Shown here: positions 10,820-34,733 of the stretch, piece by piece
How the letters are laid out: every line of letters starts with the position of its first letter
Position numbering within the stretch: position 1 is the stretch's first letter
IMG/VR virus record: IMGVR_UViG_3300009001_000035
Span: 1 to 35,825 of that record
Length of the DNA: 35,825 nucleotides
Reading direction: 5' to 3' (one strand)
From: a virus
The notes under the pieces: generated by a model
Database searches by the model: none
What the model was told of the DNA's origin: nothing
What the model saw: the letters and a program-made list of their open reading frames with translations, nothing else
Translations under genes and position numbers: made by a program

Positions 10820-11170
10820 ATGGCAGGTCAACTACACAAACGACTATATAAAGATAAAATTAATGTTCAAAGAATATCTTCAGCTACTGTAGATGAACGC
10901 GGAATTGAATCTCAGACATGGCAATCTCACCTAACTGGTGTAGCATGTAAAATTATATCTTCTGGTACATCTGAAGATAAATCAGGAAGAAACACAATAT
11001 TAGAAAATTTTTCAATACATGTTCATGGAGATGTTGATATAAAAGCAAATGACAGATTGCAAGATTTTACTGATAACGATAAGTACTACGAAATAGACGC
11101 AGTGAGAAAATCACATAATAGAAGTGGAGGAGTTGTAGGGGTTGTGTTGTCGGCACATTATTTTGAATAA
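10820..11170 (+). CDS. Head closure protein (neck, gp16/Phage_H_T_join-like)
   Basis: This 116-residue protein has the size and beta-rich pattern of the head-tail joining or stopper proteins. Features are the N-terminal KRLYKDKINVQRISS strand, the mid-segment LTGVACKIISSGTSED, the DVDIKANDRLQDFTDNDKYYEIDAVR hairpin (about residues 73-98), and a C-terminal strand ending in VVLSAHYFE. The order connector, then stopper, then a tail-completion gene, is the usual one. Its last base is shared with the first base of the start of the giant gene that follows. Assignment rests on position, size and pattern. Confidence 0.62.
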   Translation: MAGQLHKRLYKDKINVQRISSATVDERGIESQTWQSHLTGVACKIISSGTSEDKSGRNTILENFSIHVHGDVDIKANDRLQDFTDNDKYYEIDAVRKSHNRSGGVVGVVLSAHYFE

Positions 11171-14100
11171 TGCCATCCCTTAGACAATCTATACAAGTAC
11201 CTAAATTAGCTTTAATTTCTAAACCTGACGAAAGAAGCTTAGCATTATTTAAATCCATTAAAGGACTTAAAGGGGCAGACCTAAGATATGCAATAGGTTA
11301 CAACATGTCTACTCTTAGAGCTTTTGGTGTTCCTATTAGCTCTAAAATTATATCTATGCCTTATGATGTATCACAAGCAATAAACACTTTTAACAGAGGT
11401 AAAAAGTTTATGCAAGGTGGAGGTTTTAAACAGATTAGACAGCGTGGTACTGTTTTAGCTTTAGCAAGAAGAGGTATTCCACAATTAAGAGGAGCTTTAA
11501 TACCTAGAACATCTAGCAAAATATTTAATCGTTATGCAAATATTTATGGTGGTCGTATTATTCAACAACAAATTATATCAAGAGCTGCAGGTGGTGCAGG
11601 TAAAAAAGAAATACTAGAAGCTATATTTAGACCAGAAATAATAGAAAGAGAAGCTAAAAAAGAATTGACTTCTAATAAATCAGATAACTTTTTATTTAAA
11701 TGGCAACAAGCATCTTACATGAGAGCAGTATCTGGTGCTCCTGACCCAATTAGAAATAATGCATTTGTTCAAGCAAAAAATTTTAACAGAAAGCAAGGTT
11801 TAAAAGGTAAGACATTTGATTCAAGATACGGAATTGTAGATAAAAGTGGTGAACACTTAGCTATGAGTGACAGTGCTTTTGAACAAATTATGTCACTTGT
11901 AGACCAATCAAGTTTGGCTCAAGCAGAGGAGACAGTTAGAGGTGCGGTTAATGATATTATGGCTGACCACATGGCTGAAGTTATGAACTCTTCAAATAAC
12001 CTTGCAACACGTCATTATAGAAAAGAAAACATTAGTGCATCTAAAGATAGAAAAAGAACAATGATAAGACACTATTACAATTTGTCTGGAAGTATTGATG
12101 CATTTGAACAAGGAACAGATGGTTTATCTCCAGATATGGATAATCCATTGTCAGCGTTTGAAAAATTTAATGTAAAGGTTATTGGAACTCCACAAGGTAA
12201 CGGCCAATCATATAGCATGACAGTCGATGGTTTTACTAACCCTTTTTTAGAAGGTGCTCAAAATAATAGTATGGAAGCATTAAATAAATCTATTGAATCA
12301 GATATGCAATTACTAAAAGCCAAACTAGGTGACCAATTAGGAGCTGCATTGGATGCTGGAGGTACAGAGATTGCTATGTTGGCTAACAATCTAGGATTAC
12401 CTACTCCTGACTTTCAAGGAGCTGAAGCTTTTGGAATTACAAATAAAACATTTGCTCGTACCGTTGCAAATGCTCTTTTTAGAGTAGGAACACATCAAAG
12501 CTCAGCTGTAGCTACTGATACTTTAGTAAATAAAGCAGATTTATTAGCACAAAATGATTTGTTAGCTATTTTAAGTTTTATTGACAAAATGTCTGACAGA
12601 GGTTTTAATAGTCTTGCTAGAACAGTATTAAAAATACTTTCTCCAAAAATTGGTGGAAGAGATGCAAAAACTAAATATCTAACTGAACAAATGAGAAGAG
12701 TATTAGTTCCTAAAGAAGAATCAAACTTAAACAATAACAAAGTAAATTCACAATTTAATATGCTTAATGCAACTGATAAACAACTCAGAGATTTAAATCA
12801 CATATATGGTGGTTGGTTTCTAGAAGGAGTTGGCGGTTTTAGACAAGAGGTACACTATGGTGTTGGTCAGGCTGCTGCTTCAGGTGCAGCTGTAGTTATT
12901 GGTGATACACCTACTTCAAAACCTAGATTTAATGTTGGTTTTGGTTTAGATGATGTATACATAGACCCAGCTATGGTTGATTATTACGACCATGTAAATA
13001 ACGAAGCTTCACAAAATACAAGAAGTGCCGATAGATATGGCTCCAGAATTTATAGAAATTTATTAACTCAATACAGAGCAGATAGAAAACGTAATAGAAC
13101 TTTAAATAAAACAAAAACAGAAGATAAATTAACAGAACCTGGTGCTTTATATCATGACAATGAAGAAGATATATTAAAAGCATTAAAGGCATTTGAAATA
13201 GATGTTTATACTGATGCTACTCAAAATTTTGGTAAAAAAGGTTTGTTTGCTATTCCTTATGGAAAATTATTACATCCATTACATGCACAAATAGAAAAAA
13301 AGATTAGAAGAGATTTAAATGCTACAGGTCCTTTAAGTGCTAAAAAAACATTAGATTTAAAAAAATTATTAGCTGGCTTCAAACATAAGGAAGCAGGTAC
13401 TTGGTCTTCTGTAAGATTGAATATGAATAATGATACTAGAATTCCAAGCGACGCACCTACACCATTTCTTGCAGGACAAATGGCATTTGTACAAGAAGGG
13501 GAGCGTGCTGAAAGAGAAATTGTAGATATAACTACAAACTCTACGAGATATCAAAATAGAAAAAAGGAAGAAGCTTATAGAGGTATAGGACCTAAAGACA
13601 ATAACTATGTTCCTAACAAAATTGCAATTGCAGAATCTATACACATATTACCAATTCATCAAAAAGGAAAAGCTTTTATTACTGCTGAAATTATTGCTGG
13701 TACAAGTAAAGCACGAATTGGTCCTGCTGATAAAATAAGGGACATTGAGCAAATAGAATATGGTGGTCCTGCTACTGACGCAAATAATCAGTTTACAAAA
13801 AGAACTGATGGAATGATATATTTACCAAGCTTGTTTTTTACAAGAGCTTGTGAAGAAGCAGCAGCATTTTTAGGATTTACAGATGCTGGAAGAGTTTTGG
13901 GTTTTGATAAAACTTTACAACAAAAAGTAGGTGTTAAATTTAGGTTAGGTAAAGGACAATATACATCTGCTGCTAGAGCATTTAAAACTAAAACAGAAAG
14001 AATGGAAAGAGAAGTTCATCAAAGTGGTTTACAAGCTATTAGAAGATATCGTAGAAATCTTAGAACTACAATAAGAAAAAGAAATTACTCACTTGGTAGC

Positions 14101-16494
14101 GATTCCATAAGAAAGCAAGGTCAAAGAATTATGAATGCTTTTAATAGTGAATCAGTTTCATTTATGGGTGATGGAGGAAATGACAGATTTATTGATGCAG
14201 CTTCTATTGTTAGAACAAATAAGGATAGTGTAACTAGCAGTATTCCAGGAATGTCACACGGATTTAAAATGGATGCATTTGGTAAGTATTCAGTAACTGG
14301 TAAATTTACAACAGGTATTTTAAATGAAGGATTTATGAGTTCTTTAGTTAATGAACCATATTATGACAGGTTTATTACTAATGACAATTTTGCTGTAGAT
14401 ATTTTAACATATATGGATGGTGAAGGTATGTTACAACAAGAACTAGGAAGAATACCTTATCAAAAATTGTTAGACCCTGGCTTTGTTAAAAAAATGAGAC
14501 AGATGGGTGCTGGTGTAGAAGCTAACAATTTAATGAGAAAAGTTAAACAACTAGCTTCTGGTGTAAAAGATGGAGGTTTTAAAGGTTTACAAATACAAAA
14601 TACATCAGATTTTGAATATGCTGCTAAATATTTTGGGGATAATTCAGAACTAGGAAAACTAATAGGTATGACTTCTATGGACACTAGAGCTCACATTTTT
14701 CAAGCACTAGGATTAGGAAAATTAAATAAAGTACAAGACCCAACAACTGGTCAATCACAATTATTTTTTCAATGGAACGACACTACAGATGTAACTGACT
14801 TAAATAATTTAATATCAGTTGGTAGGTCTAGTAAAAATAATAAACTATATCATTTAATGGATAATGTTGCAGGACCAGGAGCTAGAGGAAGATTAACAGC
14901 ACATTACTTAAATGTTATTAGAACAGTTTTAAATGGTGTGCCAGGTGTAAATCAAAATAGTAATAGAGAATTTAGAAACAGTATAGAAAGTCAAGCTGCT
15001 TTTATTGCAAGAAAAACAGTAACAGGTTTACAAACAGTATTCTCTCAAGTATCAGTAGGTCAATCTTTTGATGACATGAATGCTCTAATGCTTACCTTGG
15101 AGAAAATTACAGCTATATTAACACTTTCAGCATCTGCTGTTGTAGATAATGCAATAATGATGAAAAATATAATAAAAGCAGAGAGTGACTTTGACAAGTT
15201 AGTAGGAGAATCTTTAAAAGGTAATACAAGTGTTGGAGAAATGTTATTTAATATTCCTCATGGTGCTGATTTAAATAATATTGCAAACATGGATGATATT
15301 GTTGTAGGTTACGATGAGAATGGAAATATTGCCGCTTTTGATTCTGAATCAATAGTCAATGAGGCAGCAGTTGATTTAATACATTTTGATGAGCAAGAAT
15401 TGGGCGCTATGGGTGAGATTAGGTCAGTAGGAGGAAAAACTGTTGCAAGAGGTGGTAGCATGCCAGAAGCCTTAAAAGCTATACAACACCTTATATATCA
15501 AAATATAAATGCTGAAGGAACTAGAGGTTCAGGCTCTATAGAATCAAATATGGCTGACTCTTTAATAATGTTTAATGAAGCTAATTGGAAATTTAAATTA
15601 CCGAGAGGCAATTTTGACAGTGGTTTTGAAGCAGCACTAAATGCTATGCGTGCTTCTGTACCATTATATTCAGGAGAAAATAAATTCCTACCAGATGGTA
15701 TAGAAGTTGTTAGTACCAGTGGTGGTGCATTCCATAATGACAATTCATCAATACCTTTCCAAACTGCATCTAAATCAGTACAAAAAACATTTAAATATTT
15801 TGAAAAATTAAGAAGTGGTTCTAAAGTAGACCCTCAGACTGGTGCTGCATCTCAATGGGCAGCGACACCTAGAGCTGCTGGTGAACAATTTATAAAAGGT
15901 AGAGCATTTAAAGCATTAGCAATAGCAGACTTAACACACAGCCCTAAGTCAATAGAAATTGCAAACATTTTGTCTGGTAGAAGTAATAACGATATAACAT
16001 TATCTAACTTTGAACAAAATGTAGTTCTAACTGGTAGTGGTGGTAGGAATTACTTATCAGGAACAGAAATGGATATGATGATTGGTAATGTAGCAAAACA
16101 GTATGGTGAACATGGATTTGGTGAGTGGTTAAACGGATTAATTTCAGGATTGTCTTATGAAGTAAACCATGCTCTAAAAATGAACCAAGAACCACCCCGT
16201 GGAAAAAAGAAAACTGATGATATTGGTTTTGATACTTTACATATGATTATGGTAGTTGAGTGGATTTTAGGTAGAACTCCTGGCTCATCAAGAAAAATGG
16301 ACTCTTTGGGTCAATATGAAGCAGCAGGTAAATTTGAATTAAAACCATTACATCAAGGTGAAATTAGAAGTTTATATAATTACTTTGAACAACAAGCTAG
16401 AAATCACAGAAGAGGTAATAATCAAATATTCCCTAAACCTAAGTTTGCTAAAAAATCAGGACCTACTAGATATGGCGGTGCTGGTTATAATTAA
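11170..16494 (+). CDS. Giant protein of unknown function at the neck/tail-completion position
   Basis: This 1774-residue protein is not recognised. It lies exactly where a 120-170-residue tail-completion protein (HK97 gp10 type) normally sits, between head closure and tail terminator. Around residues 819-890, a patch with IEYGG near 862 and a following LPSLFFTRACEEAAAF segment vaguely resembles the end of gp10-like proteins (VEYGT...P.PF..PA), so a gp10 core may be buried in it; this is weak. The rest is polar, with many Asn, basic tracts, no strong signal peptide and no clear membrane span. It could be a second large tail or neck component, an ejected protein, or an enzyme; I saw no polymerase or protease motif. 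The last residues are glycine/tyrosine-rich. Confidence 0.72.
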   Translation: MPSLRQSIQVPKLALISKPDERSLALFKSIKGLKGADLRYAIGYNMSTLRAFGVPISSKIISMPYDVSQAINTFNRGKKFMQGGGFKQIRQRGTVLALARRGIPQLRGALIPRTSSKIFNRYANIYGGRIIQQQIISRAAGGAGKKEILEAIFRPEIIEREAKKELTSNKSDNFLFKWQQASYMRAVSGAPDPIRNNAFVQAKNFNRKQGLKGKTFDSRYGIVDKSGEHLAMSDSAFEQIMSLVDQSSLAQAEETVRGAVNDIMADHMAEVMNSSNNLATRHYRKENISASKDRKRTMIRHYYNLSGSIDAFEQGTDGLSPDMDNPLSAFEKFNVKVIGTPQGNGQSYSMTVDGFTNPFLEGAQNNSMEALNKSIESDMQLLKAKLGDQLGAALDAGGTEIAMLANNLGLPTPDFQGAEAFGITNKTFARTVANALFRVGTHQSSAVATDTLVNKADLLAQNDLLAILSFIDKMSDRGFNSLARTVLKILSPKIGGRDAKTKYLTEQMRRVLVPKEESNLNNNKVNSQFNMLNATDKQLRDLNHIYGGWFLEGVGGFRQEVHYGVGQAAASGAAVVIGDTPTSKPRFNVGFGLDDVYIDPAMVDYYDHVNNEASQNTRSADRYGSRIYRNLLTQYRADRKRNRTLNKTKTEDKLTEPGALYHDNEEDILKALKAFEIDVYTDATQNFGKKGLFAIPYGKLLHPLHAQIEKKIRRDLNATGPLSAKKTLDLKKLLAGFKHKEAGTWSSVRLNMNNDTRIPSDAPTPFLAGQMAFVQEGERAEREIVDITTNSTRYQNRKKEEAYRGIGPKDNNYVPNKIAIAESIHILPIHQKGKAFITAEIIAGTSKARIGPADKIRDIEQIEYGGPATDANNQFTKRTDGMIYLPSLFFTRACEEAAAFLGFTDAGRVLGFDKTLQQKVGVKFRLGKGQYTSAARAFKTKTERMEREVHQSGLQAIRRYRRNLRTTIRKRNYSLGSDSIRKQGQRIMNAFNSESVSFMGDGGNDRFIDAASIVRTNKDSVTSSIPGMSHGFKMDAFGKYSVTGKFTTGILNEGFMSSLVNEPYYDRFITNDNFAVDILTYMDGEGMLQQELGRIPYQKLLDPGFVKKMRQMGAGVEANNLMRKVKQLASGVKDGGFKGLQIQNTSDFEYAAKYFGDNSELGKLIGMTSMDTRAHIFQALGLGKLNKVQDPTTGQSQLFFQWNDTTDVTDLNNLISVGRSSKNNKLYHLMDNVAGPGARGRLTAHYLNVIRTVLNGVPGVNQNSNREFRNSIESQAAFIARKTVTGLQTVFSQVSVGQSFDDMNALMLTLEKITAILTLSASAVVDNAIMMKNIIKAESDFDKLVGESLKGNTSVGEMLFNIPHGADLNNIANMDDIVVGYDENGNIAAFDSESIVNEAAVDLIHFDEQELGAMGEIRSVGGKTVARGGSMPEALKAIQHLIYQNINAEGTRGSGSIESNMADSLIMFNEANWKFKLPRGNFDSGFEAALNAMRASVPLYSGENKFLPDGIEVVSTSGGAFHNDNSSIPFQTASKSVQKTFKYFEKLRSGSKVDPQTGAASQWAATPRAAGEQFIKGRAFKALAIADLTHSPKSIEIANILSGRSNNDITLSNFEQNVVLTGSGGRNYLSGTEMDMMIGNVAKQYGEHGFGEWLNGLISGLSYEVNHALKMNQEPPRGKKKTDDIGFDTLHMIMVVEWILGRTPGSSRKMDSLGQYEAAGKFELKPLHQGEIRSLYNYFEQQARNHRRGNNQIFPKPKFAKKSGPTRYGGAGYN

Positions 16495-27700: not shown

Positions 27701-28235
27701 TATAAGTGGTGGTAGTGGTAGCGGTAGTGGTGGAAACTCAGGTGCAGACTCAGAACAAGGCAAGACTCCTGGTACTGCACTTGTATATAAAAATAATAAT
27801 GAATTACTTGATGGACTATATTATCAAACAAAACATTATGGTAATATTACAGGTGCTCAGATAAATGCTTTGTTAAAAGCAGGTATGAATGTTGTTCCTA
27901 AAGTTCCTACAGCAGCTATGGGTATGAGATTACCAGATATGAAAATGCCACAATTTAAAAATGGTGGAAGAATGCAAGACCACTTAATGAAGAGAGCTCT
28001 TGTTGGAGAATATGGACCAGAAGAAATAAGATTTGTTCCAGGTTCTGGTTTCTTAGTCAAGCCATTAACTCAAGGTGGTAGAGGTAATAACACCATAGTT
28101 GAGAATTTATCTGTTAATGTTACTGGTATACCAGTTGATAATGCATCTGCAAGAAAAGCAGCATTACAAATCAAGAAAGCATTACAAAGACTTGATAGAG
28201 AAGGTAGAGCTGGTGGAGGAGTTAGGAACACATAA
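18792..28235 (+). CDS. Tail tape measure protein (3147 residues)
   Basis: This giant protein sets tail length and is ejected with the DNA. The N-terminal region (residues about 25-380) matches the phage tail tape measure core (TP901/PhageMin_Tail type: KFEESFVAVKKT, ITAQELNQIAAVGGQLG-like blocks and helical repeats), with a hydrophobic segment at about 53-72. Further hydrophobic stretches lie at about 409-430 and about 1681-1710 (AVLLGMIKAFSLLGVAYLVV). A G/S-rich linker is near 2969-2985, and the C-terminal VGEYGPEEIRFVPGSGF block (about 3065) is typical of tape measure ends, as is SPSKATEYQARMVLKGL (about 2337). Residues about 2510-2720 form a coiled coil. At about 0.15 nm per residue, the tail would be about 470 nm. 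No peptidase or lysozyme domain was recognised in it. Confidence 0.93.
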   Translation: MATKSAFSLKGDIQLFFSDATLKKANQQIAQTAARIQGRTQNVNRSLASLAGNVGTTFGLVAAGFGASAMAAGKFEESFVAVKKTLNIAGDAKKVETAFNSIAKSLLELTRISPVTAQELNQIAAVGGQLGIAANDIVKFTQVIQKLTIATNLGAEDAALAMARLQEITGRGVNELDNLGATLVDLGNNFAATESEITNASLQIATATSQVSGNLNNAAVDALAFSTALRAIGQPAQAGATAIVRLMTDMSQAVVQGGEDLDLFAKTAGMSSGEFRKLFGVDSTKAIALFVKGLDQSNIAGMSNIEVMERLGLSQVRTRKAILGLSKAHETLFEAIDTANNAFVENTALNLEAERRYDTLYSKIQQLKNIAQAGIIDFSQDNNSLEYAKSTVETLTNLTQVTMDNLSRIIKVIVPVTGTLFTLRTVFSLIEKNTANMAANLGLVDTSMKGIGSASKALNSVGFALGSGGAISEEDVETFGMDLYKGGRITTGDRIRQAIPSIFGKITGFSTGSDKRQADITRQSFFASRRGADAFMQNKVDQIVDFRGQDLEGYVDTLANLGIETDELAEAMSETNVAIRAGKLFMEKSMEIAHNMLANTGIVGGDYSAFPNLQKALQGNKLTDLEPNQIISKGLIDLDKYSPEEIFKARQSIVLEQIDNATSGAKTADPSLVQNFIRQINYSIFNMYSDLEAYFAEGLKAKVQAMNMALFQRPINPMEQIGLISRRLGVEPDMVAGTASGVGASYPGGFDLGPDMSIGPSLTKAQRLLTLGFGPNNQQEEIEKDLIKMAEQFIGESTLDLRKRNYFETAFKGIGFANNTSKDVLGMNQAMDTGNARLLSLINRVGIQALQPEDFMQSDGEGFRLTEATDIPLSIKKLGEDATKQYLEMIQQGGFFPLMGDEVQFHIKRLMSESQMFVNNLQNKLGAIFKKAADVFGPVITKSLDFIQFQGLRLVEFFENLDNKVFNKLRNNLQEYAINNVAALSSVTSVGDAKITDPLTRSILGKSIVSPSGVSNEADGWINLLNDRTEKFTMLQRFDEMLKEYNQDSTIVTDFYTQLRSRGYPQSPNVLPPGVLGELRSELPGQMFNNMVMRQFDDMEPKGLDMNELVSRFNMQMRGGMGAFGSISFKGKVFQESFSKIDTIGLNLRLLFNTLKDKVAPLFTFVKDIASAHYLLDASQFSLIETVTQEAEKYKREYLGALENVFEAGRGPSALLPGIPSPLQTKPYAQYGSPLQLDAEGKPKATRISGMSTFGGIKSLGLKDGEVFDRPEIQPSVGDFIVDLMGTQLTLDDDIPYLNTLKKSPDFPAAAAKIKKFKADFENQIINFGEYVELIKDIQIEIFRAVPESVMDIAPLDWASTNRKLIEENYEQSGFVTTRSGEESKVLGQKFRLGDLYIPNTNSEQARREDFITMFPEQFLDQRFAPDDSQTSTPMRGVYGTNQTILKYQDTINEFYAKISDGITRFADTIRMKMPAISEGLKKFTDRLFNFAVMLDQTFRKIGQSIEEFLQNLVTRIGESQVVKGVGERVSSFIGGFKKVGAQKDYNDLLKSEIKLQNVINKILRKRETSQVRLGDLIKREGTQELLSASSVKGVSDKQNIDNLLDSIYGTSGEGFFGKQANRKRRGIAVGGGLEQVNEVVALLQSSDDFFVDYKTRAGETIELNQSMLKSFTVLSSKVGRFTAVLLGMIKAFSLLGVAYLVVAPLVKMFSKIGAQSRGAKEFTNTLREVTDGMLEYRVELFKLSEAEKLRADQAKVIGGTTSEAYESIVDYIDKQNKALTNQRKQMSQTLGTSFLENIAENLLGSPQDNFFFKGAGGPGSYIDSVISQLATGRNLTEDMVRKQIAEPIGNALYNVLESGEIPTIGEIFNQVLFTEQPSPTNMGELSGFFTGFTREFLEKSGVEKSTDDAFLFFNEIFQNALVEGIFESQKLSAEEIARMGQQAGGDPFGAALGGLLFGEGGIANMNDTEIKKDIRDRLGAGANFGAIYGDLLGEVNQSIAKVINDYTGRGTKGTDFFAELGEGDFSSIGAGAVQQAFLSEISKQIRATTPNATDAQVGQAMVEFLSFYETVGAMTGVALGTVSELPQLLEKISPDAPMFQPLMQMLQTRIQELEQAGYVTADQMFDAQGNFNDMFKLFNEGMGKIEKETIADVKALNNTLGITAQMSAKLAIKMSESFKKMRSEISLFGKEVQQQQFTRRTLGDLINDFVQAGNLQDKLESDVSKLRLQGYQMLADRVLSLGPGGADLAKRFLNDSVAAVAAESQLRTIAPSDATALGVTSPLEDDKDFMAKMKAAGMNVVKGLTEGIESGYQEILNTFTNLGEAIIEKLAIALDLGSPSKATEYQARMVLKGLQLPAQKSPERTALLNTYEKLGQEIPSSIAKGIQNTSNLLNPLLNPQNPSGNPDQSLIPGAPGIGRGGKVGPPTAYKSNFNIGEGYYSGGMYFDSEKLEAIFSKFGANFSMFVGTQTNIQNKLDTIVANIYNNATDNITQMQEAWGMVTSLTNAERQYNSSILGVFNAKQSLAKTLREEASLTDRIADTKERLDKLEIEGKKGNITVKERVGILQQLLSLREMEKKAAGEYDARTALSIQQKEQEVANMALMFDRGVITQLDFQAAQEELSELKGEFKSDEDKELFFLQLADAEAEYKKTVEDAKKVDQSLISTREEYLTLLDEQERKSAEVTVSQDGYRASLENVVTTNMALNMEILKFNEQAGLYAEELAKIKGAYGEVTDEVNNLFNAVERYHNSLGKIGIDSATAIGVASGGDDLSEEVTAKAVEEELKQEAADQISNQAKTSVTTFQGFGDMIASQLDAFKLGEYFTELLNQGSKGALIADDAFLQSIIDESQQPGYTVNKYGYPTFGPTSDEKDRFLEDDSQILGYQKRLDYSNAERMFLQNMEAFVESIGINLERNAAGIYEYTQSNLDFVAENLPAAYSEMDILGFMDVLNKTNMFRTTSNLFPEADVISGGSGSGSGGNSGADSEQGKTPGTALVYKNNNELLDGLYYQTKHYGNITGAQINALLKAGMNVVPKVPTAAMGMRLPDMKMPQFKNGGRMQDHLMKRALVGEYGPEEIRFVPGSGFLVKPLTQGGRGNNTIVENLSVNVTGIPVDNASARKAALQIKKALQRLDREGRAGGGVRNT

Positions 28236-29593
28236 TGTCTTATCAAATACACATAGGAAGATTAAGTATTACATCGCCTGAAACTTTACAGTTATCAGCA
28301 GGTGAAGATGGTAAATCATTGTCTTTAAATGGAAAATTTGGTGGTAAAGAACATACATTGGACCATATAAAATATTTAAGAGATGAGTTGCAATCTATGT
28401 CAACTATGACAGAAGCAGTACCTTTAAGATACGATGGTGATGCATCTATGAATGGATATGTAAAAGTTAGAAGTGTAAGTATTGATGTACAAAAATATTT
28501 AGTAGGTTCTATAAGTTACCAAGTAGATATGGAATATGTTGGTAGAGAAGGTGACGTACAAATGGAATCAAGACTATCTGGCTCATTAATAGAAAATGAT
28601 TTTGTTACTTCTGGAACTACACAACAACTTCATGCACCACCAGGAAATAGCTTTGCTTTTTATCATCCATCTAATCCAGCTTCAAATGTTAGAACTGCTA
28701 GAGATTTAACTAGCTCAACAGCTACTGATAGTACAAATTTATATATAAAACAATCTGACACTCTTAGAGATTTTAACTCTACTTACAATGTCGATGTAGC
28801 TGATTTTTATAAAGGTGCTTGTCAAATAAGAATGGGTTTACATATGCAAAGAGAAAATCAACATGACTCAGATACAGTTACTGAAAGTATTAGGTGTGGT
28901 AAATTTGCTGGTGCATATTCAAATGGTGATTCTGTAATTTTAGAAAACGGAATAATTAAATTAGTACTAGGAACAAGTTCTACTTCTTCTAGTTTTAAAT
29001 TATTTATTTGGGACGAAAATCAATATGCTACAGAGACTGAATGGGTATTTTCAGAAGGTGCTCCTGCTTCAGGTCAGCAACATGGTGACTTATTTGCAGG
29101 ATTTCATAAAGTTCAAATACTAGCTAATAGACCAGAAGTAGCAATTATTAGATGTACAACTTATAAAGATACAACAGATAGAGATAAAAGATTAATAGTA
29201 GATTTTACCTTAAGAAGAGGTTCTCATTATGTAGGCGTTATAACTTCTTATTACACAGCAGGAACATATGTAAATATAGCTTTAGAGAGTGCTCCTACTA
29301 CTGCACCTAATGTTAATAATATTGCTAGTGGTTATATTATGGATGGAACAACATCTCCTGAAGATGGTAACTATTGGTTTATAGGTTCTATTAATAATAT
29401 CAATTCATCACAAGCTTATACTGATAATGCTTTCTTTCAATCTAACCAAGCTGGTAATGTATTTTCATTTTGCTTAGGTTATGAACTTGTAGACCCTGGT
29501 ACTTCTGCTGCTTTTAGTTATAATGAAGCAGGAAATGTATTTAAACAATATCTAGATAATGTCAATGAGTATCAAAAGTTGGTGAAAGCTTAA
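28235..29593 (+). CDS. Distal tail protein (Dit-like), large form
   Basis: This 452-residue protein starts in the last base of the tape measure gene (TAATG), where the distal tail (Dit) gene is normally found. Residues about 1-105 resemble the Dit N-terminal ring domain (LDHIKYLRDELQSM helix, then VPLRYDGDASMNGYVKVRSVSID, the beta hairpin characteristic of Dit). The rest, from about 115 to 452, is beta-rich with no recognised family and may be a carbohydrate-binding-like addition seen in evolved Dit proteins (typical Dit lengths are 200-280). It would connect the tail tube to the hub and fiber. Cysteines are few and there are no membrane segments. The Dit reading is supported by order and the N-terminal pattern. 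Confidence 0.65.
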   Translation: MSYQIHIGRLSITSPETLQLSAGEDGKSLSLNGKFGGKEHTLDHIKYLRDELQSMSTMTEAVPLRYDGDASMNGYVKVRSVSIDVQKYLVGSISYQVDMEYVGREGDVQMESRLSGSLIENDFVTSGTTQQLHAPPGNSFAFYHPSNPASNVRTARDLTSSTATDSTNLYIKQSDTLRDFNSTYNVDVADFYKGACQIRMGLHMQRENQHDSDTVTESIRCGKFAGAYSNGDSVILENGIIKLVLGTSSTSSSFKLFIWDENQYATETEWVFSEGAPASGQQHGDLFAGFHKVQILANRPEVAIIRCTTYKDTTDRDKRLIVDFTLRRGSHYVGVITSYYTAGTYVNIALESAPTTAPNVNNIASGYIMDGTTSPEDGNYWFIGSINNINSSQAYTDNAFFQSNQAGNVFSFCLGYELVDPGTSAAFSYNEAGNVFKQYLDNVNEYQKLVKA

Positions 29594-30285
29594 TGCCAAT
29601 TACAGAAAAATTAATGTCACAAGGTAGCTTTGTTCTATCATTAGATTTAGCATTGACACCAAACTATATTCTTGGAGCTATACAACCATGGGACCAAATA
29701 ATAATAGTAGATGCTCCTATGGACGAGGCAGACTTAATTGACTCAGTAGTTTTACCAAATTCAGAATATGTAGGAATAATACAGTCTTTAGCTATTGAAC
29801 CTGAGTCAGCAGAAATAGAAGGTGCTGGTTTAAGTATATATGTTGGTGATTCAGAAAATAGAGGTCTAGGTATAAGTGAAATAGACAATGATGGTTCAAG
29901 ACCTAGAGAATATAGAAGTAAAGGTATAGAGTATGTAATTAATAATGATGACGGACAACCTTATGGAATTATTAGAAACAATGAGTCAGGACAATTAAGA
30001 ACAGTATATCCTGGAACTATTTCAGAAAAAATTATTGAAGATACAGATTTATTATTAAATTTTGAAGGTTCAGATGGCGCAACAACATACATAGATGAAA
30101 CAAATGATGAGCATGATATTTATTTTTATGGAAATTCAGAAATAAGTACAGACCAAGCTAAGTTTGGAAATTCTAGCTTGTTCTTAGATGGAAATAGTTA
30201 TGTAGATATAGACTACAGTCCTAACTTTCATCCAAATATAAATGATTTCACTATTGAATGGTGGGAATATAGGATTCAACCCTAG
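29593..30285 (+). CDS. Tail hub N-terminal part ending in the first half of a LamG domain
   Basis: This 230-residue protein starts one base inside the end of the Dit gene. Residues about 1-100 resemble the N-terminal domain of siphovirus tail hubs, with DQIIIVDAPMD and a YVGIIQSLAIEPESAEIEG strand pair, then LSIYVGDSENRGLGIS (about 94-109). From about 149 it has the first half of a LamG/concanavalin-like domain: DTDLLLNFEGSDGATTYID, then FGNSSLFLDGNSYVDID, then NDFTIEWWEYR. Here the reading frame ends with Gln-Pro-TAG. A LamG domain needs about 150-170 residues, so only half is encoded. The missing half occurs in the next gene, after a lysozyme domain. This suggests a hub gene split by an insertion. 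Confidence 0.75.
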   Translation: MPITEKLMSQGSFVLSLDLALTPNYILGAIQPWDQIIIVDAPMDEADLIDSVVLPNSEYVGIIQSLAIEPESAEIEGAGLSIYVGDSENRGLGISEIDNDGSRPREYRSKGIEYVINNDDGQPYGIIRNNESGQLRTVYPGTISEKIIEDTDLLLNFEGSDGATTYIDETNDEHDIYFYGNSEISTDQAKFGNSSLFLDGNSYVDIDYSPNFHPNINDFTIEWWEYRIQP

Positions 30286-30293
30286 GGAGTGTT

Positions 30294-33200
30294 ATGCCAC
30301 AGTTTGACTTTGCAAATGCGGACGTAAGTTCAGATTTTGTTACATATTTAGCAGCTCATGAAGGTGGGTTGCCTTTTGTTTATAAAGATGGTTATAGTGG
30401 AACATCTGTAGTTAGGGAAGATGACTGGACTCGTTCTTTTACAAATGGAGTGACAGCTAATCCTTATAATTCTAATTTATACTCTGATGCAAGAAATGCT
30501 TCTCTTGGTACATCAGTAGGACCTTCATCATTTTGGAAAAACCAAGTATCTGGTAGCTATATAAGGCATTATGCAGGTAGGGTTCCTTACGATAGAAGAA
30601 GACATCATTACTCAAAAGATTATGGAGGTACACAAACATTTGGTATAGGTATGACTACGGATGCTTTTTACAAACCAGGTGCAAGTAATAGTTCTCAAAC
30701 ACATTGGGCTATAGAAGATTTAAAAAAAGCAAGTGGTGTTGAAGGCGGAAAAACTGCAATAAGAGAATATTTATGGGATATGTTAACAAATCCAGATTTA
30801 GGTGTATCTGTAAAAATGAATGGTACTTGGTACAATATATATTTTCCTGTTGAATTTGATGATAGTTATGCAGAAAACTCTACTGGTGGTTATTGGATAG
30901 ATACTAATCTTTCTGGAAGCACAAATGATGGATTAGGTAATACAGGAAAATTAGTAAACAATGATGTATTAAATTTTAGATATACAGGAACACATCCTAC
31001 TGGACACAATGGTATAAATTTAGATGGAGTACAACTTACTGCTTGTAGGCCTTCACAAGAAATAATGAAAGCTTTGTGTGAAACTGCATTAAGTTATAAA
31101 TATGTTCCTTCAAGTATTAGTTTAATTACTGCTAAATATCCTAACATTGCTGACCAATTTCCATATGTAACTGCATATGCTCAGGCACATTTTGATGTAA
31201 TGATGGACATGGCTTGGCATAGAGGAATAGGTGGATTAAGAAGTTCATACTTTATGTATCTATACAATGACAGTGATTCAAACTCTTCTACTTATGTAGA
31301 TGGTTCTAGTGTGACTGGTGCTTCAGATTTAGAGCAATACAAACATGCAGCAAAAGCAATTATGTTTATGGGATTGAGCACTGATGGTCGTTCTACTGCT
31401 TCACAAAATGAGGTAAGAGGTTACAAAAGATATGTATGGAAAACTGGATTAGTCAATAGGTGCCTTAATAGAATACACGACATAATGATGGGAAGTCTAG
31501 AAAATACTTCTAACACATTTAGTATTGGAATAAGTCCTATTAATAATCCAAGCTGGTATGACGGACCTGATATACCTAAAGATTTCTTTTTAGCACCAGA
31601 TGAATTTTATCCTGGTTATTTTGATGGAATAGGTGGCATACCTGGTTGGTTACAATATTCTAAAGATTCAAATCTTCCTGGTCTTGGTAGTCAAGGATTA
31701 GGACAAGCTAGTTCTACAACTACTACAAGCACACCAGATGCAGACTCTATAGAAGAATCATTAACAAGTAATGCAAGGACTATAGATGAACTTATATCTG
31801 AGTTTGATGCTTTGCCTGTATGGGACTTTTGGAATGGCCCATCATCTGCAGGTGTACAACATAACTATGGTGACTACACTGATATATATTGGGGTAATCA
31901 GTCTATATACGATACTGACCCAGGCACACCTTCTTTTTATTGGTCAGACCCATTTTTTCAAGCAGCTTATTCTAAATGGTGGCAAGATGGTACATCTTGG
32001 TTTCATGGTGCTACTGCTTCTAGTACACCTAGAACACCTACTAAACATGGTGCTGTAATATCTTCTACACAATATGCTACTTTACCTTCATGGATGTTAG
32101 GTCTAAATGAAAATGGTTCAGGAGAATCAAAGGTTTATATAAGGTCATCTGTTTCACAATCATTAGTACTTAATGGTCTTGCAACAGATGATTGTTATGA
32201 TATTGCAAATGGTAAGTCATTAGGAACTATTGACTATGGTCAATGGAATCACTTTGCTATAACAAGAAGTGGTAATGACTTTTATACATTTAAAAATGGA
32301 ACAATGGTACAGACTTGGAGAAGTGAAAAGTCTGTAAAAATACCTCAACCAGATGTTAAATCTTGGGCAAAGATGGGACTTAACTTATCTATTGGTCGTT
32401 CACAAATATCAGATTATTTTTATGGTTACCTAGATGGCCTTAGAATAACTAAAGGAACTGCCAAAAGTGTTGTGAATAGCAGCACAGGTTTAGTCACATT
32501 TCCTGTTCCTACATCTGCTCCAACAGTAGAAAATAGTCAAGACCAATATACAGGTACACATTATGTAGAAACTGTATTAGCAGCACTTAATAAAATTGCC
32601 TCTCAATTAGACATAGAGTGGAGAATTAGAATAGGTACTGTTGATGATGATACACCTAGACCAATACCTAATGGAACTAATGCAGGAAAAGTACTAATAG
32701 ATGTAGGACCAAGAGACGACTTATTTGTTGGTCATGGTTTAAATGAAGATGCACAAGCAGTCGTAGTAAGAGGTACTTCTGGAGAAGACCCATCTATAGT
32801 AGGTTTAGACCCTTCATCTATTAAATCAGAATTTGATGCTAGAGAATATGTATCTACTGTTGAATATTTAGTTACTACATCTGGACATACAGCAGACTTA
32901 TTAGATGTTACTGATGACAATATTCCTTATAAAGATATGCATGGGCAACCATTAGAAAGAGTTATTTATGCTTCTGAACCTGACCATCCACATGTTTCTA
33001 AAGAGCAGAGAGCTAGAGCATTCTTAAATGAATTAAAAAAAGTAAAGAGAAGTATTAACTTAGATTTAGATTACTACGATATACAAGGCGATTTTGAAGT
33101 AGGGGATATGATATTTGTTTATGACCCTGACTTAGGTTTTGAAGATACAGAGGATATAAGAATAGAAGATGGTAGAACTAAACTTTTTGAAATATCTTAT

Positions 33201-34733
33201 CAAGGTGAATTTATAAACCCTGAAAAAATTAGGGTTACATCAATCAACTATCCAATCAAAGATGGTTATGGTGTTTACTTAAGAAGACTTATATCTCCTA
33301 ATAGTTCTCAAGTAGAATATCTTAACTTAACACCTTATGTTCAATGGGAACAAGGTGGAGCAAGATTAGAAGTTGGAGATGCACCTGTTAAATTAGGAGA
33401 TGACTTAAGGTTTAGTCCTGCAATAACAGGTATATCTGCTACAACTAAAGCACAAACTCCTGGTGAAGTTAGAGACCCTGATAACTTATCTTTAAATGGA
33501 ATTAACTTAACAAGCGGTGTAATAGCAGACGCATTGGGTGCTCCTACTGCAATTATAAAAATAGAGTGGAGAGTTCCTCTGAATACAGACAACACAATAG
33601 TTCAAAATGGTTCTCACTATAATATAAGATACAGAAAGACAGGAACTACAGACCCTTATTCAGAAAGTTCAATTAACTGGGGTAATGAAACATTTACCAT
33701 AGAAAGCTTAGCCGTAGGAACACAATACGAGGTAGGCGTACAAGCTGTAAACCAAAATGGTGCAGTTTCTAAATATGTTGATGCAACTATAACCACATCT
33801 ATAGATAGTGATGCTCCAAAAAAACCAGGTCCTGCAGCAGCTATTGCAGCAGGTGCATTAAGAACTCAGATTACTCATAATCTTGGTGCAGCTGTAGATA
33901 ATCAAGGACAACCTGTTTCAACAGTCGTAGACTTTACATTAGATTTTGATATAGACCATTTAAATGTATATGCTACAACAACATCTGGTTTTACAGTTGG
34001 TTCTAATTACTTAGTAGGTGAAATACCAGTATCAGCTTCTCACTTAAGATTGGAAATACCTGTTGTGTATGAAATACAAATGCCTAATGGCTCAACACAT
34101 TATTTTAGATTTACTGCTGTAGATAAAGCTGGTAACGAATCAGACCCTTCAGATGAGCAATCGGCTAGTGCTAATTTAATAACAACACAATACATTTCAG
34201 ATGCAACTATTACTGAAGCTAAGATACAAGACTTGGCTGTTACTACTGCAAAGATTACTGATGCTTCAATTACAAATGCTAAGATTGGAGATACTATACA
34301 GTCTGATAATTATCAACAAGACACACAAGGTTGGATAATAGAAAAACAAAATGCTAACTATCCTAATGGTTTTGCTGAGTTTAACGACATAGTAGCTAGA
34401 GGAAATATTACAGCAACTACTGGTGCTATTGGTGGTTGGGATATTGCTACTAATACTATTAAGGCAGACGTTACATCAGGTGGTACAACATATTACCTAA
34501 CTCTAGATGCTTCTGCTGGTACAATAGAAGGAAACTATTCAGCTGGTAGTTCAGGTTGGCAAATTGGTGCTGACGGTTCTGTAGAGTTTAACGATGGAAA
34601 CTTTAGAGGAGATATATCAGGTGCTAGTGGTACATTTAGCGGAGGATTAAATATTGGAAATGGAACCTTTGTTGTTACATCACAAGGTGGAGTAACATTG
34701 ACATCAATTACAGGCTTCCATATAACACCTTAG
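30294..34733 (+). CDS. Tail-associated lysozyme fused to the LamG second half, hub and fiber modules
   Basis: This 1479-residue protein has AGGGAG (30284-30289) 4 bases before its ATG. Residues about 10-400 form a T4-type (GH24) lysozyme: Glu23 and Asp32 in HEGGLPFVYKD, Thr115 in TQTFGIG, then HFDVMMDMAWHRGIGGL and a final GYKRYVWKTGLVNRCLNRIH, in family order with an ~80-residue insertion between Asp32 and Thr115. It would open the host cell wall during entry. A Trp/Tyr-rich linker (about 400-575) leads to the second half of LamG (about 575-725: GQWNHFAITRSGNDFYTFKNGT, LSIGRS, YFYGYLDGLRITKG). Then follow the hub C-terminal domain (about 755-1070, with YYDIQGDFEVGDMIFVYDPD), two FN3-like modules (about 1075-1172 and 1180-1295) and a gpJ-like fiber connector (TITEAKI...GDTIQSDNYQ...GWIIEKQN). 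Confidence 0.85.
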   Translation: MPQFDFANADVSSDFVTYLAAHEGGLPFVYKDGYSGTSVVREDDWTRSFTNGVTANPYNSNLYSDARNASLGTSVGPSSFWKNQVSGSYIRHYAGRVPYDRRRHHYSKDYGGTQTFGIGMTTDAFYKPGASNSSQTHWAIEDLKKASGVEGGKTAIREYLWDMLTNPDLGVSVKMNGTWYNIYFPVEFDDSYAENSTGGYWIDTNLSGSTNDGLGNTGKLVNNDVLNFRYTGTHPTGHNGINLDGVQLTACRPSQEIMKALCETALSYKYVPSSISLITAKYPNIADQFPYVTAYAQAHFDVMMDMAWHRGIGGLRSSYFMYLYNDSDSNSSTYVDGSSVTGASDLEQYKHAAKAIMFMGLSTDGRSTASQNEVRGYKRYVWKTGLVNRCLNRIHDIMMGSLENTSNTFSIGISPINNPSWYDGPDIPKDFFLAPDEFYPGYFDGIGGIPGWLQYSKDSNLPGLGSQGLGQASSTTTTSTPDADSIEESLTSNARTIDELISEFDALPVWDFWNGPSSAGVQHNYGDYTDIYWGNQSIYDTDPGTPSFYWSDPFFQAAYSKWWQDGTSWFHGATASSTPRTPTKHGAVISSTQYATLPSWMLGLNENGSGESKVYIRSSVSQSLVLNGLATDDCYDIANGKSLGTIDYGQWNHFAITRSGNDFYTFKNGTMVQTWRSEKSVKIPQPDVKSWAKMGLNLSIGRSQISDYFYGYLDGLRITKGTAKSVVNSSTGLVTFPVPTSAPTVENSQDQYTGTHYVETVLAALNKIASQLDIEWRIRIGTVDDDTPRPIPNGTNAGKVLIDVGPRDDLFVGHGLNEDAQAVVVRGTSGEDPSIVGLDPSSIKSEFDAREYVSTVEYLVTTSGHTADLLDVTDDNIPYKDMHGQPLERVIYASEPDHPHVSKEQRARAFLNELKKVKRSINLDLDYYDIQGDFEVGDMIFVYDPDLGFEDTEDIRIEDGRTKLFEISYQGEFINPEKIRVTSINYPIKDGYGVYLRRLISPNSSQVEYLNLTPYVQWEQGGARLEVGDAPVKLGDDLRFSPAITGISATTKAQTPGEVRDPDNLSLNGINLTSGVIADALGAPTAIIKIEWRVPLNTDNTIVQNGSHYNIRYRKTGTTDPYSESSINWGNETFTIESLAVGTQYEVGVQAVNQNGAVSKYVDATITTSIDSDAPKKPGPAAAIAAGALRTQITHNLGAAVDNQGQPVSTVVDFTLDFDIDHLNVYATTTSGFTVGSNYLVGEIPVSASHLRLEIPVVYEIQMPNGSTHYFRFTAVDKAGNESDPSDEQSASANLITTQYISDATITEAKIQDLAVTTAKITDASITNAKIGDTIQSDNYQQDTQGWIIEKQNANYPNGFAEFNDIVARGNITATTGAIGGWDIATNTIKADVTSGGTTYYLTLDASAGTIEGNYSAGSSGWQIGADGSVEFNDGNFRGDISGASGTFSGGLNIGNGTFVVTSQGGVTLTSITGFHITP

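Follow-up and report, generated by a model that had tools for sequence, protein, structure and literature searches.

Genes in pieces are known from T4-like phages, where nrdA of Aeh1 is split by mobE and gene 60 of T4 by mobA; gene 43 of Aeromonas phage 25 is a further insertion-split phage gene (PMC2988022). In the cases studied, a working enzyme is restored from the two chains, and nrdA and mobE meet in a UAAUG stop/start overlap (PMC2988022). A homing endonuclease at the break is typical of phage genes in pieces, without being strictly defining. A GH24 tail lysozyme is carried mid-protein on linkers by T4 gp5, the working form of which consists of gp5* and gp5C; both are derived from one gene by proteolysis after the lysozyme, at Ser351-Ala352 (PMC3004832). 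Insertional fission into complementary polypeptides was described for the mitochondrial cox2 of Campsomeris (PMC5374615).

The locus analysed here is located on an IMG/VR fragment of an uncultured tailed phage, 35,825 bases long (hereafter the window). A gene of 3147 aa at the tape-measure position lies 5′ of a gene of 452 aa (28235..29593), followed by ORF1 (29593..30285, 230 aa; chain A) and ORF2 (30294..34733, 1479 aa; chain B); the 452-aa gene, both ORFs and all features given within them lie on the plus strand. A tail-tip protein is probably made here as two chains by a lysozyme unit located in a LamG domain, with chains A and B together completing LamG and hub. As in the genes in pieces, the coding sequence of a conserved phage protein is interrupted by a coding insertion and continues as two neighbouring cistrons. 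Whereas the insert there is a homing endonuclease and the hosts are enzymes, here a structural tail protein is cut in LamG by an inserted lysozyme, which shares its frame with the downstream half of that protein and is fused to it; a homing endonuclease was absent from the break, the insert consisting of lysozyme and linker. The principle of genes in pieces, known from enzymes, would thereby reach a structural protein of the tail, with a functional domain, fused to one of the halves, as the insert. T4 gp5 likewise has a lysozyme inside a hub-associated protein and ends as two polypeptides, but here two cistrons are used, the cut precedes the lysozyme and it is LamG that is divided; no homology to gp5 beyond the lysozyme fold was found. 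In Campsomeris cox2, too, an insertion splits the gene into complementary polypeptides, but in an animal mitochondrion and by a separate ORF cluster fused to neither half. In the open-access literature searched, which covers few of the subscription journals, no description of a tail protein or hub split at LamG by a lysozyme cistron was found; the initial annotation, which knew of no described hub with this arrangement, holds to that extent, although each part has close analogues.

The protein is termed hub-like because of its place in the gene order, its PF09327 and FN3 domains and a match to gpJ in PHROG. It is encoded 3′ of the tape measure with one intervening gene, the 452-aa gene, which is Dit-like by position only (between tape measure and ORF1), was retained in all relatives inspected, split and unsplit, and gave zero matches in Pfam and PHROG searches. 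The position after tape measure plus one gene is shared with lambda gpJ-like central tail fibre and tail-tip proteins (phrog_31, PF09327), as are the fibronectin type III domain (PF00041, 1.6e-7; 33546..33764) and the Phage_Tail_Tip domain (PF09327, 9.8e-11; 34242..34427) of ORF2. The PHROG 31 gpJ match was confined to the FN3 region of ORF2, and in difference to the gpJ-like proteins the N-terminal region had no match to gpJ or to known hub families. The hub gave no match against PDB profiles, and a hub-only model had a pLDDT of 53, too poor for a fold search.

ORF1 comprises the N-terminal hub piece (residues 1-145, 29593..30027; 38% identity to residues 1-143 of the unsplit relative L028) and the first part of LamG (residues 150-228, 30040..30276). 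Its C-terminus reads ...FTIEWWEYRIQP-TAG, 3 residues beyond the LamG strand WWEYR; the ORF1 end directly before the TAG was also quoted as DFTIEWWEYRIQP. The TAG stop and an 8-nt gap (30283..30293) precede the ATG of ORF2, with a Shine-Dalgarno-like AGGGAG at 30284-30289, in agreement with the earlier description of a stop, an 8-base gap and a restart with its own ribosome-binding site. In ORF2, a decorated GH24-like lysozyme domain (30294..31580) is followed by a linker (31581..32042), the final ~50 residues of which (SIYDTDPG...WQDGTSWFHG) are conserved among split members, by the LamG remainder (residues about 584-725, 32043..32468) and by the C-terminal hub piece (32547..33416), which is continuous with ORF1 residues 1-145 in single-chain relatives; FN3 and tail tip complete the chain. 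In the linker region of relative L039 (ORF2 residues 426-442), a weak EF-hand-like match (9e-4) was observed.

Scans of IMG/VR returned 26 further contigs with the same split, giving 21 distinct sequences including the window. ORF1 terminates 2-5 residues past WWEYR in all 21 distinct members, the reading frame of the lysozyme continues without a stop into LamG in 21/21, and the ORF2 start MPQF is conserved throughout. The window being an uncultured fragment, it was considered whether the split is an artefact of assembly or the recent breakage of a gene in a single metagenome contig, but with distinct sequences, gaps and frames in the further contigs this explanation has a negligible probability; assembly error was rejected on the basis of the 26 other contigs.

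The gap from stop to start was -1, 1, 4, 6 or 8 nt, and the frame of ORF2 relative to ORF1 was 0, +1 or +2, differing between members. Several members carry an overlapping stop/start (UAAUG), so that the overlap of nrdA and mobE recurs here, and L017 and L019, both of the offset-0 group, have tandem TGA-TAA stops. The 4-nt-gap members (L002, L004, L010, L013, L077, L079, L081) have the common junction CCG-TGA-TA-N2-ATG. No obvious Shine-Dalgarno sequence precedes ORF2 in these members, so that its expression there is presumed, a point against the two-chain reading; their junctions suggest termination-reinitiation. Alternatively, a single chain could be produced if a programmed frameshift or readthrough of the stop occurred or if the lysozyme segment were spliced out, and a +1 shift at CCG-TGA would indeed join the frames in the 4-nt-gap members. 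However, because gaps and frames vary and tandem stops occur, no one device for frameshifting or readthrough could have been kept throughout, and the conserved MPQF start as well as the open lysozyme frame, which is under purifying selection, also stand against a single chain. A search of the insert for group I/II introns gave no Rfam family at E<=1. Frameshift, readthrough and splicing were rejected on the grounds of ORF2 in all three frames, the tandem stops and the intron search, and the production of a single chain is considered very improbable; the earlier statement that readthrough cannot restore one chain thus extends, through the three frames, to the relatives.

Within ORF2, Pfam PF13385 (LamG, Concanavalin A-like) matched the late part of LamG only (profile positions 63-142 of 151), and ORF1 residues 133-228 resembled the N-terminal part of cyanophage LamG domains. 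Aligned as one sequence, a check that the initial annotation had proposed, the joined pieces covered PF13385 positions 2-142 of 151 with 39.8 bits and were colinear with one LamG that is intact in Synechococcus phage S-SKS1 (88 bits, 3e-24). A profile of 211 positions was built from 11 intact LamGs, taken from sister phages only. On this profile, ORF1 of the window occupied positions 2-82 (8e-24) and ORF2 positions 96-205 (2e-20). In 21/21 split members, ORF1 covered positions 1 or 2 to 81-83 and ORF2 later positions only, and no second copy of either piece was found by the profile in either chain of these members; a complete LamG elsewhere in each chain, named beforehand as an observation that would speak against a divided domain, was not present. 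By profile alignment, one domain in two cistrons with one cut point is the strongest single result. The LamG is divided and resumes in ORF2 after lysozyme and linker, as had been claimed, but not in halves, because about 80 of the domain's about 230 residues lie in ORF1 (a partition of 1/3 : 2/3), and the second part starts at ~32043 instead of 32025.

In each of hub N, LamG N, lysozyme, linker, LamG C and hub C, pairwise dN/dS fell within 0.03-0.25, except that lysozyme and linker reached 0.38-0.41 between the window and L004, the pair that diverges most; judged by these ratios, every segment of both pieces is under purifying selection. Mean identity was 59% for LamG-N, 57% for LamG-C, 58-59% for the hub and 46% for the lysozyme. 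An AlphaFold read-through model, built on the in-frame relative L017, had a mean pLDDT of 65.7 and a pTM of 0.42, with pLDDT of 81-90 for LamG N, mostly 60-90 for the lysozyme and mostly 66-95 for LamG C. Its LamG structural matches comprised only ~165-173 columns at good rmsd, and viral fold matches spanning both LamG parts had large rmsd.

These data bear on whether LamG is reassembled at all. Both chains could be made and used while only the hub domain joins them; chain B would then complete its jelly-roll with linker strands, and the LamG piece of chain A would pack elsewhere or be a relic. Scored by itself, the LamG part of ORF2 is a fragment above the Pfam threshold (30.8 bits against a cutoff of 27.6), and for this reason the LamG of chain B might fold with linker strands; the linker adjoining the LamG remainder is conserved, and at a pTM of 0.42 the L017 model does not demonstrate docking of the LamG pieces. 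Yet the LamG piece of ORF1 is as conserved as the rest, is under purifying selection and ends in the near-invariant strand FTxEWWEYR; since a relic should decay, this disfavours the relic reading, and we regard a joining of the chains through the hub domain only as rather unlikely.

For the preferred reading, completion of LamG and hub by both chains, the following course is proposed. A hub-like tail-tip protein with a LamG jelly-roll at a fixed site would have been the starting state, and a unit that codes for the lysozyme and brings a start codon of its own (MPQF...) would have come to lie in the LamG loop just past the strand WWEYR. ORF1 would be translated to its stop, and ORF2 would be begun either from a separate ribosome-binding site, in the window AGGGAG, or by termination-reinitiation over a gap of -1 to +8 nt. 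Chain A, with the hub N piece and LamG 1-82, and chain B, with lysozyme, linker, LamG remainder, hub remainder and tail tip, would assemble in the virion and complete the LamG and the hub domain that they share, and the assembly would present the linker-tethered lysozyme with a free N terminus for entry. It appears fairly likely that a jelly-roll supplied partly by each of two genetically separate chains joins a virion structural protein in this way, as a long-maintained natural split-protein complementation that leaves the N terminus of the tail lysozyme free. With this locus, the ability of a divided jelly-roll to keep a large virion assembly joined becomes directly testable.

The lysozyme had been annotated as a complete GH24 lysozyme. 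The window's own copy is divergent and gave no Pfam match, but 7/13 aligned relatives matched PF00959 (best 1.1e-5), and the E-x8-D and T-x-G-x-G spacing of T4 lysozyme is kept in the window, with candidate catalytic residues Glu23 (30360), Asp32 (30387) and Thr115 (30636). Using Foldseek against the PDB, the modelled lysozyme domain of L017 had the SpmX muramidase 6h9d as top match (TM 0.79 by target) and also resembled the FAHEc1 endolysin 7m5i (GH24). The annotation is upheld, as GH24-like, by catalytic spacing, by the Pfam matches of relatives and by the fold of one relative, with the reservation of the divergent window copy.

The catalytic Glu, Asp and Thr, spaced as in T4 lysozyme, were present in 10/21 members, including the window, and replaced in 11/21. 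The replacements occur among L017-L026, L034, L039 and L046, are of I/T/V type in the L017 group and V/D/R in L039, and leave domain and gene split retained; from tree and residue survey, the losses are most simply explained by two events. The lysozyme of the window and of nine others probably cuts peptidoglycan during entry, whereas that of the eleven residue-losing members may have another role or may simply have been retained. That half of the members have lost these residues and yet keep the split raises the question whether the lysozyme domain has another role or the split is irreversible. No lysozyme match was found in isolated phages, and scanning of IMG/VR returned the split family only, an outcome favoured by the MPQF-start-anchored pattern. 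The flanks of unsplit relatives contained no convincing lysozyme.

Uninterrupted homologues, of the L028 and L094 types, align to both halves of the split hub. In the first sister type (L028, L050 and others; 14 distinct) the hub is a single chain with neither LamG nor lysozyme; residues 1-143 correspond to ORF1 1-145, and 6-9 residues on follows the ORF2 region from near residue 752. In the second (L094 and 15 others; 16 distinct), a single-chain hub carries an intact LamG at the same site and no lysozyme. L131, L137 and L146 are three divergent LamG-less single-chain hubs of a third LamG-less lineage. No hub relatives were found in a scan of prokaryote genomes, and isolated phages searched for the hub core gave no relative, LamG and FN3 neighbours only. 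Of the single-chain hubs checked, two, those of L050 (residues 1104-1174) and L094 (1256-1302), end in a Peptidase_S74 (endosialidase chaperone) domain, for which ORF2 of the window had no Pfam match.

An unrooted tree was calculated from the hub core alone, excluding LamG and lysozyme. The three states formed three fully supported groups separated by two changes, with the split members as one group. When L131, L137 and L146 were added, they branched beside the intact-LamG group, and LamG presence then needs two changes; a constraint uniting all LamG bearers was rejected on this tree, in which a long branch plays a part (p-AU 0.011). Because LamG domains outside the family are intact in one chain, the lysozyme-interrupted LamG is considered derived. 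The proposed insertion of the lysozyme into LamG, creating a stop and a restart, is borne out by the intact-LamG and LamG-less single-chain sisters together with the profile partition; of the proposed insertion of LamG into the hub, the sister phages confirm that LamG sits inside a hub-like protein, which on the unrooted tree may have either gained or lost it. No LamG, intact LamG and lysozyme-broken LamG form a graded natural series for one protein becoming two chains.

Elsewhere in the window, a 1774-aa ORF between head and tail genes (11170-16494) gave no match in a Pfam search. The partial ORF at the left end of the fragment (2-871) resembles a GlcNAc glycosyltransferase (PF11397, 2e-13), and a small ORF at 861-1169 has a significant SET-domain match (PF00856, 2e-9), which is unusual for a phage.
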